In this document: positions 51,921 to 61,503 of the stretch, one piece after another
Numbering within the stretch: the stretch's first letter is position 1
Layout of the letters: the number at the start of each line of letters is the position of its first letter
Assembly (NCBI GenBank): GCA_000827495.1
Contig: KN817536.1
Span: forward strand, 124,001-188,000
DNA length: 64,000 nt
Origin: Hypholoma sublateritium FD-334 SS-4
Taxonomy: Eukaryota > Basidiomycota > Agaricomycetes > Agaricales > Strophariaceae
Direction: 5' to 3'
Position numbers and translations under genes: made by a program
Notes under the pieces: generated by a model
What the model was told of the DNA's origin: nothing
What the model saw: only the letters and a program-made list of their open reading frames with translations
Database searches by the model: none

Positions 51921-54900
51921 ATGAAAAGTCCCCTAAAGCGCCTCTCCTATATTCTCGCGTTCATAGGCGAGCCGACTCCTACGCGTCCCAAGCTGTCCAA
52001 AGAAGCCTCCGACAACCTCCTTTCCTACTACTCTTCACCCATAGCAGACGAGGGCCGAGATTACTCACAACAACGAAGTCCGGAGAAACCTCAGTCAAAC
52101 CGCGCCCATGTCAAAGCCAAAAAGGCGTCTGCTGTCGCTTCGACCTCCTCATCCTCGGACTATTCTGATGACTCCGAAGTCACCGACGCTCGCGACATTC
52201 CTTCAGAGGCTTCTTCATCTGTGGCCAGGAGGTCTGGTACGCCCTCAAAAGGCGGCGCGGACAAACGGCGCATAGCAATAGTCCAGATGGATCATGTCAG
52301 CGACACAGCCCGTAAATCAAATTCGGACACTGCGTCGACCAACAATTCGATACGCTCTCGTCGTGGCAATGCCAACAGCTTCGCCGGACTTGCCCTCGTT
52401 GCCCCTCCCGATGCCGCCGTCCAGTCATACGCGCAACTAACGCCTCCATCAACGGCCCCTCCCGCGGCGGCTGATAATAGGTCCAATAGTCATTTGATGG
52501 ACGATCATGAGAATGGACGCCATCGTTCATCTTCTGCTAGTCCTGCCGGCCGTCTGTCGCGTGATACTTATACGGGCAGCGTGGGTTCTGCGCAGGGCAC
52601 ACGGGCTGCAGCGGCACCAATTTTACCTGCAGACAATGACAAGACAAAGAAGAATACAAAGCCAGATGACAAGTATAATCTTATTCTGGCCCCGCTGGAT
52701 GTCTCTCAACGCTCAGCCACATCACAGTCATCCTCTCCCGCCACGCACTCCGATCCTGTGGACTGTGGCCGCAACGTCGTGTCCCCCTTGGATAGAATGT
52801 CGAGTCCACAGATGATGAGCCCTCTACCGATAGTGACGCCGTCCATTGGAGAAGGAAAGGAAATCGATAAGCCGGTCGCGGGGCCTGTTGTTGTAAAATT
52901 GGATAACCTAGCGTCGAAGACATCGCATTCCACGGCATCCTGGAGATCAGACAGTCCTACGCCTTCACATGGTTCTGCCAGCATTCATGGAAGCACATAT
53001 AGCTCGTCGGCCACATCCTCATACTTGCGCTACGAGCCAGGTAAGCTTATGTGATGCTATATGTGGCCCAAACAATTAATCATATTGTTCAACCTGTAGC
53101 AATATGATGAGCTCAGGTGTCTGATGATGATGACAACTCTATATTATACCTGTAGCAATATGATGAGCTACAGGAACAGACACATGAGCTAATGTACAAA
53201 GAGGAAAGGAATGTGAACTCGTACCTCAGGTGTCTGATGATGATGACAACTGAGGAAGAGGAGTGAAAAGAGTGCGAAGGTATACTGAGCGCACACGTGA
53301 CGATGTGAATGACGTTCTGTATCTAGGTATAGTATATACTCTCAACACACCCCCTACAGAACGGAAAGAAAGAAAATAGAAAGAGAGAATAAAATAAAAT
53401 CAAATGATAAAACACAAAAAGAGTCGACTTTGTCGAGTATTTAGAAGATGAAAGCTTGGGTTATTTAATTTGTGATAATGGTATGTTCAATCATACCGAG
53501 AGCTCGACGGTGCTTCGCAAACAGCGGGAACGGCAGGGGCTTCGTGAACAAGTCAGCAGGCATGTCGGCCGTGGGCATCCAGGACGTGGTGAAGGTCCCA
53601 TCAGAGACATGTTGACGGATGAAATGGTGACGAATGTCAATGTGTTTGGAGCGAGAGGATATAGCAGAGGATTTGGATAAAGCAAGAGCAGCTTGGTTGT
53701 CAGAGAGCAAAGGAAACGGTTTGGGAACGGGGAGTTTGTTGAGTTCCAGAAATACACGCATCCAGATAGCCTCCTTCATGGCTAGGGCCAACGCATAGTA
53801 TTCAGCCTCTGTCGAAGAACCTGCAACGGATTTCTGTTTAGCAGCAGACCAAGAGACCAAAGAGTTCTCGTAGTAGAAGCAGTAGCCCGAGATACTCTTC
53901 CTGTCGTTAATGTCCGAGGCCCAGTCAGAATCGGAGCAGCCAACACACTTGAGATAGCCTGCCAGAGATTCAGGGGTACGTTCAGAATCTTTGTCGCCAA
54001 AGCATAGGAGGAGGTCCTTTGTGCCAGCAAGGTAGCGGAGACAATGTTTAGCGACCAGCATATGTGCACGAGTTGGGTTGGCATTGTACTGAGCAAGACA
54101 CATTGCATAGTAGACAAGTTCTGGACGGGTGAACCAGGCAATGTAAATGATCTGACCTGTGAGCCGCATGTAATTGGTGCGGAGATCTGCATCAGAAATG
54201 TCAGGGAGCGCATTAGGAGGAGCAGGTTTGAGTTCTGCGAGTTGGCCAGAAAAAGGGAGGGAGGCAGGTTTGCAATCCGTCATATTCCAGTCGTCCAGCA
54301 TCTCCTCAATGTACGATTTCGATGACAAGTAGAGTTTCCGATTTGTACGATCACGGATGAGCTTGATCCCCAAGAAGCGCGTGCATTCACCCATGTCAAC
54401 AATGTGAAGGCGTTGCGAGAGCTGAGCAATGAACCAGAAATACAGGGGCTTGGAGTTGGTGATAACAAGGCCATCATCGACGTGCAGAGGGAGGTGCATG
54501 ACAAGTGATCGTCCGCAAGCAGGCATCGAGATAGTGGGGTCAGGAGGAGACATCCACTCGCCAAAGAATACACCATGGTCAACCTCGCATCTGATCATTC
54601 CAAGGCCAAGGAGCAAAGACATGAGCAGCATGTAGAATTCGTATGCAGAAGCACGTAATCCATACAGGGCCACCAAAATCTTGCGTACCTTACCAGGTGT
54701 TTTGGTAGGATAACCAGGGATGGCCCCTGCATACATGGGAATGCTGTTCTTAGCATGAAGGAAAGCGGTCTTGCAGTCAAACTGAAAGATGTATAGATCC
54801 TCAGCAGTAGCGTAGGCGAGGAGAATGCGGATGCTGGTACTCTTCGCCACTGGGGCATAGGTGATCCCGTACGTATCCGCTGGCTGAGAAGACCCATCGG

Positions 54901-57900
54901 CGACCAATCTAGCCTTCTCGTTGCCAGGTATCCGTTTGCCATCACTGTCAAATTTGAGGGCATAGACCCAGGCAAGGCGGATCGTGGATTTCCCGGCGGG
55001 CAGATCAACCTCCTCAAATGCTTCCATCGTGACCATACTCTGCATCTCCCGATCCATAGCCTTGCGCCAGAGATCAACATCAGTGCGGGACACAGCTTCA
55101 TGGTAGAATTTTGGCGGTTTGTTGAGGTCGTATTCCTGCCGACGAGTCCACCGAGAGACCGTGGGCGCAAGCGACGCGAAGCAGTATTCGCGGATGATGT
55201 CGTGTTCCAACGTCATCAACGTTTCGAATTTCGGCTGATCCGGAAGCTTGTCATAAGCAGCCAGGGTGATGTAGTCGACCACAATGTCCTCTGACCAGAT
55301 GTGCAGATAGTCGGAGGTCGCCGCAAGAGCCTGCCAATGAACACGGTTAGCCTCATCCCAACGACGAGCCGAAACATCCTCTCTGGCGTTCAACAACCCA
55401 GTCTCTCGCCTGTGCACCACAGCACCCCCATCTCGCGCAACAACACTCATACCCGCCGCCCGACTCCCGTGCATCTCCGCACCCACAGTCAAAGGGCAGT
55501 CTCGATCATCGGCACCCCCATGCGCAATGAGAGCATCAACCTCCACATCCACTTGGCATGCGCAAACATCAGCACCCCCATGCACGATGAAAGCAGCATC
55601 CACAACGCCAACCTCAGGAAATACGCCAGTGTGACAGTCTCGATCGTTGGCACCCCCATGCACAACGAGAGCAGCAGCCAACAAGACAATTTCCTTGTGC
55701 GCACTGCGCAAGGCAGCCCGCCTATCATCTACGATGGCCTGAACAGGCACTGTAACTGTCCGGTCAAGGGAATGTATGCGCGAATCGCGTGAATCCACTG
55801 GCGGAAGAGGGATAGGTAACTGCCTAGGAATACCCAATCGACCAGGGCGCAGCTCGTCGAATATTATATCATCGGAGAAATGTATCTTCCTGGACACAAC
55901 GTCCTGGTAATACCACCCCTTGCGACCCTCTTCATAGCCAAGAAAAATTCCCGTACGACGCATAGGACCACCCTTCGAGCGCTCCTCCTTCTTGATCAAG
56001 GGATAACAGAAGCAGCCAAATACCCGAAGGTGACCGAGATCCGGTTTGACTTTGTAAATCTCCTCAAATGGAGTAACGCCCGCCGCAAGAACAGACGAAG
56101 GTGTGCGATTTCTGACATATCGATTGACCAGATACGCAAAACCCCAGTACTGACCAGGCAGACCAGAGTCCGCGAGGAGCGTAGCACCCCCATCCGCAGT
56201 TGTTCGGATGTCACGCTCAGCGATGCCCATCTGCTGGTGTGCATGTGGCGCGCCCTGCTGCACCTGGATGCCTTTTGACCTAAGGTAGTCCGCCACCCGT
56301 CCCATGACAAATTCCCGAGCACCGTCACAACGCACAACGAGCACCTTGCAACCAGTAGTGCGCTCCAGCCATTCAATGAAGAACACAAGGTGCTCAAATG
56401 TGTCCAAACGCGACTTCTGTAGGTTCGTCGAACCCCAAGTAGAGCGCACGTCTCGAATATTGTGGTTGTACACGCAGCGGCCATTGACCGAAGGAGTAGG
56501 GTGGGGACCGGAAGTGTCCATGACAAGGAGTTGACCAATATGCGCGGGACGATGTCCAAAATGATCATATGTTTTCCGCGGCCGCTTGCCTAGCAGACAG
56601 GGAACACAGACATCACCATATGAAATCGGGCCATCAAGGCGCACCCCTGATGCATAATCCTTGGTGATAACAGCACGAGTAGCGTCCTGGCCAATGTGAC
56701 CCAGCCGGCGGTGCCAAAGATCCTGCGTCAACGGAGGGGCCTTGAAATTGACCACATACGCTGTCACGTCATCACATGCAGCAGGAGGCAAAGATGAGGG
56801 TGCAGAAGGTGGAGGCAGAGGACCAAAGACAGTGCCAGGAGCAGGTCGAGGAACAACATATTTGCTGTTGAGGAACGACAAGCGATGATGAAACTCAGCC
56901 ACAATCTCCAACCCAGGGAAGGTCGGATGAGTGTCTGGAAACTGGATTGTTGTCAACGGAGGTGTACCTGCGCCAAAAATGATAGGCACGCCTCGTTCCT
57001 GGAAGAACCCAACCGACCAAAGGTCAATGGGAGCATCCGGAGCATGCAGGCATTCCCGGAGACGAAGCAGAGCAGGTTCTCCTCTGAACGTCACAAGCAC
57101 ATGAACATCACCCCGTGCAAGCGCCCGAAGAGTCCCGCAATTCGCCGTGCCAACATCGATAGCCTGGGTCTCATCATAAGTCGTGAAGCTAGCCCGGTCC
57201 CGAATAATGTGGTTGGTACACCCGGAATCCAGAACAGTGTTGAAGCGGCTGGCCATCGACAAAAGAACGACAGGAGAGATGACGGAGGCGAAAGCAAAAG
57301 GTTCACACGCAGGCAAATACACATCACCAGCTAAAAGGCTGGGAAGATCATCATTGATGTAGCTACGGACACAGGTAAGACCAGCCCACGGTACTATCCC
57401 GTCTCCATCGCCCGGATCTTCGGCAGGAGCAACCTCACCAGGAGCCTCCTCATCTGATGTCTCCTCAGGTACGTCTGCAAGCATCGCACGAACAGGGCGC
57501 TGGCCAGCCATCCCACCACCAGCGCGATAGCACCGATCGGCAGTGTGTCCAACCGTGTTGCAGTTTGTGCATTGGAAGGTAGGACGAGCGGAACGTGCAG
57601 AGTCGGAGGGTTTGGCCGCAACAGCGCCTGGTCCAGCAGAAGCAACAGCCAATGGAGCAGCGGGAGGAGCAGGGACGGAGGATGCAGGAGCAACAGCAGC
57701 GGCGCCAGCAGGATGACGCTGACGGAACTGTGGTCCATGGCGGAGCTTGTTTAAGGAATTGTGCATCGTTTCCGCGGAATCCACCACATCCAGGAGTTCG
57801 TAGAGCGCATTGATGTCCGAGTCCGCCACACGTTCGAGAGACGTCGAGTAAATTGTAGTGACGGAGTCCAAGGAAGGTGGCAACTGCGCAAGGAAACAAA

Positions 57901-60900
57901 ACATCAAGTACCTGGCTTGCAAGAGGAACCGCGCGGACACGAGCTGAGCCACATATTCGCGCCAAGTGGACACATATTCCAGGACGCGCGTTGGATGGCA
58001 AGTCAACGTGGTCAATTTGTGGAACAGCGCACCAGCCTGGGTGAAGTTATCCAGACCCATGCCGCGACGCAGTCGTTGATAGATAGACCGGGCCGTTTGG
58101 TGGGTAGCCGGACCAGGGGGTAAATACGACCGGGCATGAGCACCAAGCTTGGACGTCAACACCCATTGAACCCGATTGTCATCCTCCCACCACTTGGCAT
58201 ATGCAGTGCGATCTGCGGCCGACGACAGAGCAGTCAGGGCAGCTGGAGGTAAGGAGGCACGAATATCCGAACGAAAGGAGGGATCGAGAGGAGGTAAGTT
58301 GGGATCGAGGCCGTCCAAGTCTGTACCATAGTCCAAATCGCAGATATGATCGTAAAGCCCAAGGCTAGTAACCGTCTGGTCCACCGATTGCACCCACGCA
58401 TTAAAATCGCGACGAGAGTTGAGCGATGGGATGTGAGTCACGGAAGGGAGTACCTTCAATGGAGCGACATAAACTGGAGCTGCAGCAGCAAGGTGTGGAG
58501 ACGGAGGAAGGGGGTTACGCAAAGCAGACCTAGGAGTAAACGGCGAAAGAAGAGGTTGACGGACACTCTGAGGGATATGAGGAACAGGTAAATCCATAAT
58601 TTCAGGCAGTCTGGTAGGAGGTGCACGCGGAGAGTAGGACGGAATGCGAGGCGTAAACGGGAGCGATGGTAGGGACCTGTTCTGAAAATGCTGGAAATGA
58701 GGTGGCGCTTCACGAGACGGTTGCGGTTGGAGTGCTACATTCCGTGGAGAAGGAGCGTAACGTGCCATTGATCGGCCATGCGTTGAAATCCCCGCATTTG
58801 CGTCAGGCGGCAAAATTGGGCGAGAAGGATCCAGAGACTGAGGCCGACGAACATCCGGTGAGTCCCTAATGGCCGTACGCTGGACAGCTGATGTAATAAG
58901 TTCAATAGTTGTGACAGGATCTGAATTCGGCGCTGGGCGAGGCGTGAAACGACCACGAATGTCCCTGGGCGGAATGCGCGAGTTCGATGGGCGAGAACCC
59001 TGCGGTAACCAGGCGCCGGCGCGTTGGGCGGATTCGGCAGACATAAATGCAATGGATGGAATCGATACTGAATGCGTAATGGGAGAAGAAGGGCGAGGAG
59101 TGTGCCGAAGTCGCGTCGGATCCCCAGGAAACATGAATATATGCGCGGAATTTCGGCTCCGGCAACCCGACCGCTGTAGCAGGAGGCAATAATGAGTCCA
59201 AACGAAGGTATTGCGAGCAAGGATCAGAAGATCCAGAAAGGCGAGCTCGAGAGAGAACGAGTATTTTACTCGGGGCCCATAACCTGTTCAACCTGTAGCA
59301 ATATGATGAGCTCAGGTGTCTGATGATGATGACAACTCTATATTATACCTGTAGCAATATGATGAGCTACAGGAACAGACACATGAGCTAATGTACAAAG
59401 AGGAAAGGAATGTGAACTCGTACCTCAGGTGTCTGATGATGATGACAACTGAGGAAGAGGAGTGAAAAGAGTGCGAAGGTATACTGAGCGCACACGTGAC
59501 GATGTGAATGACGTTCTGTATCTAGGTATAGTATATACTCTCAACACATATAAATCACAATAGGTGTTCATGCAACTGCAGGGCCATTGCCACCACCACC
59601 CAGAGCCATGTTCAACATCGACATATCCACTCCACCACCACCTCGCCCTCCTCGTCTTCACTCGCCAACGCCCACTCCAACAGCGTCTCGTATACGAGGT
59701 GATATGGAAGCGGTCAAACAAGCTCTTCAACTACCACCTTCTGTGAACGCTGTTTTGGCCTCGAAACTGTCTACTCCGCCGCCAGGGGAAGCTTTGAAAG
59801 TCCAGGAGGCTAAGAAGGAGACTCGCGACGATAAGGAAGAATCGGAGGAGGCAGTCCCTAATAAGCAGACAAACGAGTAAGTCATGCTTATATAGGTGCT
59901 TTAACATCATATTTACAATTGTTCAAGGTCCAGCGACCAAGAACTATCGCGACCAACGTCCGTTCATCGACGAGAAGCTGCTACATTGTCCAATTCGACC
60001 TCCTCCGACGCTTCTAGTGTGCTCTCTCCGGAGCTCTCTCCGGAAGACAAACAATCGTCCAAGACATCTGCAGATGACCTCAATGAGCCTGTTGCAGTTG
60101 TTGTAGTCGCTCCTCCGCGTTCCGAAAAGCTACCTCCGACTCCCATCGATCATTCGAAGTTTGATAAATGGCTGAGCGACAATCCCGAGGTCGCACAGTA
60201 TGATACGCGGCGGAGCACGTCTTTCGACGAACGACGCGAATCGCCCGAACGCTCGTTATCTTACTCGGCTGCTGGTTATGCGACGGACGCGCCGAGTCCG
60301 CCGCCGAAGAGCCTGCGTACTAGTTTGACGAACAACTTGAAGCGCTTCTCTGCCCTTCCCAGGACGCCTTCGCTGTCGTCCAAGTCTGGAAATCGGACGT
60401 CGAGCAGCACGCGTTATACGTTGTCCAGGACGCCCTCACCCTCTATTCCTATATCCCCGCGCCCCGCATTCAAGAAAATCAAATCCAGCAACCCCGCTGC
60501 GCTCTTCTGCCACGAAGTTCACGGCCAGAACACGACATTACAAAGATGTGCCATATACGCTGCTAAAATTAACGAACTCTACATACACGACTGCGGCCTG
60601 ATGGAATGGCTTGATGACTGCAAGACCCGAGGTGCGCGTTCGCATGCCAGTCACAGACGACAGAGACAGTACTAACCTTTTGCGTCTCCTGCAGGCCCGA
60701 ATACCCAGCGCGGGCCGTCGACACAGCCGTTCACACCCCAACCTCGCCAGACCTCACGCTCATCCATGATCTCCGACGCGACCTTCCCCATCCGGCCGGA
60801 CGCCTCGGTCGCCACCGACCTCCTGCAAGGCGCATACCGCGACATCACGCCCACAGGCATGCCCCCACTCCTTCCATACCCCTCCCTTGCGCTGAACCCG

Positions 60901-61503
60901 CCGCCCGCGAGCACACGCCCCACGCGCTCGCAGTCGAGCGCGAGCAGCGCGACCGCGACCGCATCCATCCGCTCGCTCGCGCCGTCGCCGTCGCTCAAGG
61001 GTGGCTTCTTCGCATCGCTTGGGCGTAAGGCGAGCATATCGAGCGGCCGAAAGGATAAGTTCCTGCCGACGATCTCGAACCCCATCGCCGTGGCCGTGGG
61101 CCCACCCGGCCGCACGGGCAGCCATGCAAGCGCACAGTTCCACCGCTCGAGCAACAGCGCGAGCGGCAATCCGCCCTCGGCTCCGGGCGGCCCGCGGGCG
61201 CCCCCGCACCGGGCGCAGCGCTCGCAAACCTTCATGGCATCGCCACCCGCCACCTCCCCGGCAGAGCGCCCGGGCAACGAAGAATTGACCCGTCGCCCCT
61301 CTCTGTTCAACCTTACGCTGGATACCGTTATTGATATACACCCGGACCCAGAGTTTTCGCAACAGGTTGACAAGCTCCACGCGTTGCTACCGCAGGCAGA
61401 TCGCGATATCCTCGCGGGCTACCTGCGACACGCGGGTCAGGATATGCTGGCAATTGGCCAGTATCTTGAGGACGAACGGATGGGCACCATCCAACGCTTT
61501 TGA
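51921..61503 (+). CDS. Ser/Pro-rich protein with CUE-like C-terminus, interrupted by a retrotransposon in intron 1
   Basis: Four exons (51921-53040, 59582-59876, 59928-60631, 60695-61503) join in phase to 975 aa. The first intron is 6,541 nt because it contains a complete copia element. Without the element and one target copy it would be 75 nt, like its neighbours. Across the gap LRYEPG continues into PLPPPPRAMFNIDIS. Most of the chain is disordered, Ser/Pro/Thr-rich, with phosphorylation-type motifs (SPERSLS, RTPSPSIP). A short ordered part is IDHSKFDKWLSDNPEVAQYD. The last 60 residues (VDKLHALLPQADRDILAGYLRHAG, DMLAIGQYLEDERMG) look like a ubiquitin-binding CUE-type three-helix fold. Function is unknown. 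If intron 1 is not removed, translation stops at 53054 after 377 residues and loses the CUE-like end. Confidence 0.8.
53081..53085. repeat. Target-site duplication, left copy (CATAT)
   Basis: These five bases directly before the left LTR equal 59547-59551 directly after the right LTR. Confidence 0.93.
53086..53347 (-). repeat. LTR (3' LTR in element sense), 262 bp
   Basis: It runs TGTTCAACC...CTCAACA on the plus strand. It contains a 27-bp direct repeat (53112-53138 and 53225-53251) and a 22-bp repeat (53092-53113 and 53148-53169). Confidence 0.97.
53348..53355 (-). promoter_or_regulatory. Polypurine tract
   Basis: In element sense AGGGGGTG lies directly next to the 3' LTR, where plus-strand DNA synthesis would start. 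It is short and interrupted by one T. Confidence 0.65.
53465..59134 (-). CDS. Copia-type gag-pol polyprotein, intact, 1,889 aa
   Basis: One frame runs from ATG at 59134 to TAA at 53465 with no frameshift between gag and pol. In order: gag with a CCHC knuckle near residue 520 (C-x2-C-x4-H-x4-C); aspartic protease near 632 (LDSGCTNH); GAG-pre-integrase near 805 (LWHRRLGH); integrase with DTSGP near 872, CDGAREF near 938 and GIAERD near 972 as the D,D,E triad; a Gly/His-rich linker with HGGA repeats; reverse transcriptase near 1450-1600 with FDCKTAFLHA and HVDD in place of the usual YVDD; RNase H near 1735-1850 (SDSDWASD, SSTEAEYYAL, LSDNQAAL). All catalytic acidic residues I can check are present. 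The leader from LTR to ATG is about 150 nt. Confidence 0.96.
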   Translation of the reverse strand: MFPGDPTRLRHTPRPSSPITHSVSIPSIAFMSAESAQRAGAWLPQGSRPSNSRIPPRDIRGRFTPRPAPNSDPVTTIELITSAVQRTAIRDSPDVRRPQSLDPSRPILPPDANAGISTHGRSMARYAPSPRNVALQPQPSREAPPHFQHFQNRSLPSLPFTPRIPSYSPRAPPTRLPEIMDLPVPHIPQSVRQPLLSPFTPRSALRNPLPPSPHLAAAAPVYVAPLKVLPSVTHIPSLNSRRDFNAWVQSVDQTVTSLGLYDHICDLDYGTDLDGLDPNLPPLDPSFRSDIRASLPPAALTALSSAADRTAYAKWWEDDNRVQWVLTSKLGAHARSYLPPGPATHQTARSIYQRLRRGMGLDNFTQAGALFHKLTTLTCHPTRVLEYVSTWREYVAQLVSARFLLQARYLMFCFLAQLPPSLDSVTTIYSTSLERVADSDINALYELLDVVDSAETMHNSLNKLRHGPQFRQRHPAGAAAVAPASSVPAPPAAPLAVASAGPGAVAAKPSDSARSARPTFQCTNCNTVGHTADRCYRAGGGMAGQRPVRAMLADVPEETSDEEAPGEVAPAEDPGDGDGIVPWAGLTCVRSYINDDLPSLLAGDVYLPACEPFAFASVISPVVLLSMASRFNTVLDSGCTNHIIRDRASFTTYDETQAIDVGTANCGTLRALARGDVHVLVTFRGEPALLRLRECLHAPDAPIDLWSVGFFQERGVPIIFGAGTPPLTTIQFPDTHPTFPGLEIVAEFHHRLSFLNSKYVVPRPAPGTVFGPLPPPSAPSSLPPAACDDVTAYVVNFKAPPLTQDLWHRRLGHIGQDATRAVITKDYASGVRLDGPISYGDVCVPCLLGKRPRKTYDHFGHRPAHIGQLLVMDTSGPHPTPSVNGRCVYNHNIRDVRSTWGSTNLQKSRLDTFEHLVFFIEWLERTTGCKVLVVRCDGAREFVMGRVADYLRSKGIQVQQGAPHAHQQMGIAERDIRTTADGGATLLADSGLPGQYWGFAYLVNRYVRNRTPSSVLAAGVTPFEEIYKVKPDLGHLRVFGCFCYPLIKKEERSKGGPMRRTGIFLGYEEGRKGWYYQDVVSRKIHFSDDIIFDELRPGRLGIPRQLPIPLPPVDSRDSRIHSLDRTVTVPVQAIVDDRRAALRSAHKEIVLLAAALVVHGGANDRDCHTGVFPEVGVVDAAFIVHGGADVCACQVDVEVDALIAHGGADDRDCPLTVGAEMHGSRAAGMSVVARDGGAVVHRRETGLLNAREDVSARRWDEANRVHWQALAATSDYLHIWSEDIVVDYITLAAYDKLPDQPKFETLMTLEHDIIREYCFASLAPTVSRWTRRQEYDLNKPPKFYHEAVSRTDVDLWRKAMDREMQSMVTMEAFEEVDLPAGKSTIRLAWVYALKFDSDGKRIPGNEKARLVADGSSQPADTYGITYAPVAKSTSIRILLAYATAEDLYIFQFDCKTAFLHAKNSIPMYAGAIPGYPTKTPGKVRKILVALYGLRASAYEFYMLLMSLLLGLGMIRCEVDHGVFFGEWMSPPDPTISMPACGRSLVMHLPLHVDDGLVITNSKPLYFWFIAQLSQRLHIVDMGECTRFLGIKLIRDRTNRKLYLSSKSYIEEMLDDWNMTDCKPASLPFSGQLAELKPAPPNALPDISDADLRTNYMRLTGQIIYIAWFTRPELVYYAMCLAQYNANPTRAHMLVAKHCLRYLAGTKDLLLCFGDKDSERTPESLAGYLKCVGCSDSDWASDINDRKSISGYCFYYENSLVSWSAAKQKSVAGSSTEAEYYALALAMKEAIWMRVFLELNKLPVPKPFPLLSDNQAALALSKSSAISSRSKHIDIRHHFIRQHVSDGTFTTSWMPTADMPADLFTKPLPFPLFAKHRRALGMIEHTIITN
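55495..55690 (-). repeat. Three degenerate repeats in the integrase-RT linker (HGGA motif)
   Basis: A unit with plus-strand core GCACCCCCATG recurs three times, about 70 bp apart. In the polyprotein this gives VHGGANDRDC, VHGGADVCAC and AHGGADDRDC. The spacing suggests an old tandem duplication that has diverged. Confidence 0.7.
59273..59284 (-). promoter_or_regulatory. Primer-binding site for initiator tRNA-Met half molecule
   Basis: Directly inside the 5' LTR, the plus strand reads GGGCCCATAACC. That equals the anticodon stem-loop of eukaryotic initiator tRNA-Met (CAT anticodon). So the element RNA pairs with the middle of the tRNA, not its CCA end, as in Drosophila copia. Confidence 0.8.
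59285..59546 (-). repeat. LTR (5' LTR in element sense), 262 bp
   Basis: This appears identical to the LTR at 53086. In element sense it begins TGTTGAGAGTATATAC, with a TATA-like sequence a few bases from the end, and ends GGTTGAACA. Confidence 0.97.
59547..59551. repeat. Target-site duplication, right copy (CATAT)
   Basis: This is the partner of the duplication at 53081. Length 5 bp is normal for copia integrases. Confidence 0.93.

Follow-up and report, generated by a model that had tools for sequence, protein, structure and literature searches.

A copia retrotransposon between the predicted branch point and the 3′ splice site of a short intron in the mushroom Hypholoma sublateritium

Here we report a young Ty1/copia retrotransposon inside the first coding intron of a gene of Hypholoma sublateritium FD-334 SS-4, found in a window of 64,000 nt (the whole stretch of DNA analysed; contig KN817536.1 of assembly GCA_000827495.1, positions 124,001 to 188,000). 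By prediction, it landed downstream of the branch point of this intron but short of the 3′ splice site, and the host allele is probably truncated by splicing into the long terminal repeat (LTR) of the element. On the splice signals, a gene cut short is more likely than one that carries a working giant intron. The locus is a natural allele in which a single insertion shifts the 3′ splice site 6.5 kb from the predicted branch point and at the same time brings a new AG at almost the original spacing (20 nt vs 18), and it is relevant, in a mushroom, to the rule that splicing takes the first AG beyond the branch point.

LTR elements that supply splice sites are already known from mammalian introns, where, according to two papers, LTR elements, antisense ones included, provide splice acceptors and poly(A) signals that can disrupt the gene, and insertions near exons are the hazardous ones (PMC1794541, PMC3088655). 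In the present case the host is a fungus and the intron merely 57 nt long when empty, so that every insertion position lies near a splice signal. Transposons in introns also alter the host transcript in white-apricot of Drosophila (copia) and in niaD of Fusarium (Fot1), which involve other hosts and other elements. Among the titles listed by a literature search, mostly of papers outside subscription, none dealt with this locus or with a mushroom intron in which an LTR element separates branch point from acceptor.

Structure and age of the element

The element (6,461 bp; 53086-59546, minus strand) is bounded by a 3′ LTR (53086-53347) and a 5′ LTR (59285-59546), both on the minus strand and 262 bp long, with the ends TGTT...AACA and 0 differences between them. 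It is flanked by the target site duplication (TSD) CATAT on the plus strand (left copy 53081-53085, right copy 59547-59551). The Gag-Pol reading frame (53465-59134, minus strand) comprises 1,889 codons with 0 internal stops, and its translation matched four Pfam families in copia order, namely gag_pre-integrs (residues 791-850), Pol_BBD, SH3_retrovirus (1027-1096) and RVT_2 (1371-1628); the integrase core (rve) was not among the four. The paired TG...CA LTRs with a 5-bp TSD, and the integrase-side domains preceding the reverse transcriptase in one Pol, are shared with the fungal Ty1/copia elements (Pseudoviridae). What we take by eye to be a CCHC knuckle, a DSG motif, a D(35)E spacing and a VDD motif were also read in the translation. 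Three imperfect 60-nt direct repeats (70-72% identity) lie between the integrase-side and reverse transcriptase domains (55483-55680).

A primer-binding-site-like stretch, GGTTATGGGCCCCGAGT (59268-59284, minus strand), adjoins the 5′ LTR. Its start, GGTTATGGGCC, directly follows the LTR in all eight other copia elements viewed, and GGTTATGGGCCCC is present in six of these eight. The initiator Met tRNA is a candidate primer; the single genomic site checked for a primer tRNA matching this stretch contained no tRNA. At the other end, a purine-rich tract adjoins the 3′ LTR (53348-53359, minus strand; CTGTAGGGGGTG read on that strand).

The original prediction of a complete and apparently young copia element is borne out by these features. 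Because the LTRs are identical over 262 bp, the element may fairly be called young, as an undated insertion; by the rule of three on 0 differences in 262 bp, the LTR divergence lies below about 1.1%.

The host gene and the acceptor of its first intron

The host gene is encoded on the plus strand. Exon 1 (51921-53040) contains 373 complete codons and 1 nt, which gives a phase-1 intron, and exon 2 (59564-59876) shares its first codon with exon 1 and opens with the VHATAGPLPPPP codons. They are followed by intron 2 (51 nt; 59877-59927), exon 3 (59928-60631), intron 3 (63 nt; 60632-60694) and exon 4 (60695-61503), which includes the stop codon (61501-61503). As it stands, intron 1 (53041-59563, plus strand) has a GTAAGC donor and an AATAG acceptor, the latter placed by alignment with homologs. 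With this acceptor, every exon is open and in frame, and the full protein has 981 aa. As had been claimed, the element lies antisense in a short host intron, with the host reading frame resuming on its other side.

Homologs of the host protein occur across the Agaricomycetes. A search with residues 300-975 of the spliced protein, built on the earlier 53040/59582 join, gave 231 proteins at E ≤ 0.001, the best 120 of which were listed; the best among the matches listed came from Galerina marginata (57% identity). Some sources call the relatives CUE-domain proteins. Pfam returned no family for the host protein at E ≤ 0.001, and none at E ≤ 1 for its last 244 residues and two relatives. In a check of the assembly for a second allele, the 3′ exons of the host matched one place only.

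The acceptor had originally been placed at 59581, with LRYEPG joined directly to PLPPPP across an intron of 6,541 nt (75 nt when empty). When 60 homologs were aligned with the host (59 rows shown), most of them read PG-[VLI]H[AS]TAG-PLPPPP at the junction. From 59564, the window reads GT GTT CAT GCA ACT GCA GGG CCA TTG, which together with the last G of exon 1 translates as G-VHATAG-PL. The two acceptors were compared by global score in pairwise alignments of the host with the best 120 listed homologs. VHATAG, with at least four of six residues identical and all six aligned at the junction, was found in 116 of the 120, and PGPLP, the product of the direct join of 53040 to 59582, in none (0/120). 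The acceptor at 59563 improved the score for 116 of these listed homologs; in three of the exceptions (P0010, P0013, P0014), whose sequences are diverged or shortened at the junction, the score fell by 6-8 points, and the fourth (P0080) does not reach it. Two Termitomyces proteins among the 59 rows shown (P0034, P0036) carry about 20 extra residues exactly at the junction, starting with GK (= G|GTAAG), and these look like a retained phase-1 intron in public protein models.

Because the homologs show VHATAG, we place the end of intron 1 at 59563 and not at 59581; the intron therefore measures 6,523 nt now and 57 nt once the element and one TSD copy are removed, 18 nt less than claimed in each case. 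The join of 53040 to 59564 restores VHATAG and connects the conserved exons in frame. Splice signals alone would not have revealed the correction, as the AG at 59581 has the higher acceptor score (5.1 vs 4.1 at 59563) and also the better branch site (score 2.5 vs 1.2). Six conserved residues were missed in this way, and acceptors called by eye require homologs.

Splice signals and the predicted transcript

Splice signals were scored against introns from chaperonin genes of the same genome (31 of 37 matches used). Of 35 introns proposed, 30 were kept at a score ≥ 5.5; they range from 45 to 143 nt with a median of 54, in agreement with the original estimate of introns near 55 nt. A candidate intron of 143 nt with strong signals indicates that not all introns are shorter than 70 nt. 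The signal model was built on 29 introns (45-81 nt; branch A to intron end 8-33 nt), for which three of those kept (107, 114 and 143 nt) were omitted and two other introns of the host were added; its scores are biased upwards, since this small set was in part selected on those very signals (GT, branch motif, YAG). Two ab initio predictions for the window, which yielded 1 and 10 introns, were set aside.

The donor at 53041 (GTAAGC) scored 6.4. The best branch site of the empty intron is ATTAAT (53075-53080, plus strand; predicted branch A at 53079), situated left of where the element inserted and 18 nt from the native intron end; its score of 6.1 exceeds that of 91% of the 3,333 YAG sites in the window. 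The first AG past this branch point now belongs to the LTR edge TGTTCAACCTGTAG (53098-53099, plus strand). It is the predicted new 3′ splice site, located 20 nt from the branch A, and would yield an intron of 59 nt (53041-53099). Its acceptor score of 6.7 is above that of 94% of the 3,333 window YAG sites, whereas the native AG (CACAATAG; 59562-59563, plus strand) is weak, with a score of 4.1 that is above only 65% of them, and stands 6.5 kb from the predicted branch point.

The strength of the LTR acceptor was set against 20,000 random inserts, of which 43% brought a first YAG at a usable distance and 3.7% brought one as strong as that of the LTR. The LTR acceptor is thus better than usual yet unremarkable, and it need not exceed chance, since so many random inserts would supply a usable YAG. 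The LTR edge TGTTCAACCTGTAG is unchanged in the LTR relative on C29, which may merely reflect integration constraints. The LTR carries CCTGTAG twice, and the second copy forms another well-scoring acceptor (53154-53155; score 6.4) that would give an intron of 115 nt.

These signals suggest the following course of events. A young copia element inserted antisense into the 57-nt intron, landing past the predicted branch point but ahead of the native acceptor. The spliceosome would then define an intron from the donor at 53041 and the branch point at 53079 to the first downstream AG, at 53099 in the LTR, and exon 1 would be spliced to the LTR at 53100, where the frame stops promptly. The 53040/53100 splice reads as a protein of 375 aa that ends in EPAI before the stop, and this is the likeliest product. 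The transcript would presumably terminate shortly beyond, in the A-rich region near 53390, or undergo degradation, and the insertion allele would lose roughly the C-terminal 60% of the host protein (981 aa). We regard this explanation as a whole as probable. A preference for the short 59-nt intron would be consistent with intron definition, the main mode of splicing in fungi according to one study (PMC2397502).

A possible but distinctly less probable outcome is that the intron is retained, that the LTR acceptor stays unused and that the transcript ends inside the element. A stop follows immediately within the intron, and the retained reading of 377 aa, ending in EPGKLM, agrees with the length given in the original prediction; about the last 60% of the host protein is missing here as well as under LTR splicing. 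An AATAAA in an A-rich stretch (53388-53393, plus strand, the host-sense direction) may act as a premature poly(A) signal, and intron retention predominates among the splice variants of the fungi examined by the same study (PMC2397502). Against retention, the stretch from 53041 to 53099 still has everything that a short intron needs, namely a donor, a branch site and an acceptor.

Removal of the entire 6,523-nt intron (53040 joined to 59564), with a long intron tolerated and a normal host protein made, appears unlikely. In its favour are the donor score of 6.4, the 143-nt candidate and the host exons, all of which stay open and in frame once the acceptor is moved to 59563, although an intact frame is uninformative on splicing because the insertion is so young. 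A branch site at the usual distance, as expected of a functional 6.5-kb intron, was not found: after the insertion, the best branch score for the native acceptor is 1.2, below all 29 reference introns (lowest 3.1, or 2.2 in the leave-one-out analysis). This lack is suggestive rather than extreme, because the branch site is poorer still at 18% of the 3,333 window YAG sites; branch points may also be degenerate. Upstream of the native acceptor, two AGs (59524-59525 and 59530-59531) leave only about 25 nt for a branch point without an intervening AG, and a higher-scoring acceptor lies 6.4 kb closer to the donor. A short intron from the right edge of the element to 59563 is conceivable. The LTR GTATAG at 59526 would give only 38 nt, less than the shortest reference intron (45 nt), and the six donors that would give 46-93 nt score from -0.6 to 5.0.

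We also consider it improbable that the 6,523-nt intron is spliced by means of a cryptic or LTR-borne branch site (e.g. CTCAAC at the LTR end) with the LTR acceptor bypassed, perhaps through masking of the element by antisense RNA or chromatin. If true, splicing of this intron would mark a major departure, in a mushroom, from intron definition. Silencing of the locus by methylation or RNAi against the element, with little transcript of either kind, is very improbable. In its favour, genes of Pleurotus ostreatus are described as inactive where a transposon influences them and active in the allele that lacks it (PMC4905642); against it, the assembly yielded just one full copy of the present element.

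Truncation by splicing into the LTR thus remains the preferred reading. Of the two fates originally envisaged for the host, truncation is supported by the splice signals and continued splicing is the doubtful one. The proposal to treat the locus as a natural test of intron length is weakened: with the predicted branch point parted from the 3′ splice site and a good AG 20 nt after it, a 6.5-kb intron left unspliced would be no measure of a length limit.

Related elements in the genome

Copies were searched for in the assembly of 46.1 Mb (281 contigs), and all counts are lower bounds. The search recovered a single full copy of the element, and the sole other LTR match (C29) is 85% identical (86% by BLAST) and is accompanied by 57 bp of internal sequence; in this sparseness the element differs from the fungal Ty1/copia elements with which it shares its structure. 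A C-terminal piece of the Gag-Pol protein (844 aa) gave 50 matches in the assembly, including the element itself. As the nearest other match is merely 52% identical, the genome is read as holding many distinct copia families, several of them with long open frames. Among the best 120 listed database relatives of this piece, the top 20 are 48-64% identical over 65-99% of its length, and the few named proteins include those of Agrocybe and Panaeolus.

The flanks of eight other copia elements, out of the 49 other matches, were inspected by eye for signs of intron targeting. Seven of the eight have a clear LTR pair (98.2-100% identical) and a 5-bp TSD (C2 GATCT, C23 ATATC, C24 GAGCA, C36 GTGCC, C40 CGTAG, C61 GACTG, C96 TCGAG), and the eighth (C48) gave just a 58-bp match. 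No insertion among the eight was demonstrably intronic, with flanking genes judged from open frames only, and their target sites had no evident common motif. At C23, GTAAGT...TTGCAG spans the joined site, but the coding-looking frames on both sides read the opposite strand, and the site was rejected as an intronic insertion. The inspected flanks tentatively suggest that the intronic position of the present element is incidental, with no sign of intron targeting.

Other copia families also seem to have moved recently, given the near-identical pairs C24/C115 (99.7% over 3.4 kb) and C40/C51 (98.2% over 2.1 kb). At C80:105133-110032, two distinct copia matches are no more than 5 kb apart and are possibly nested.
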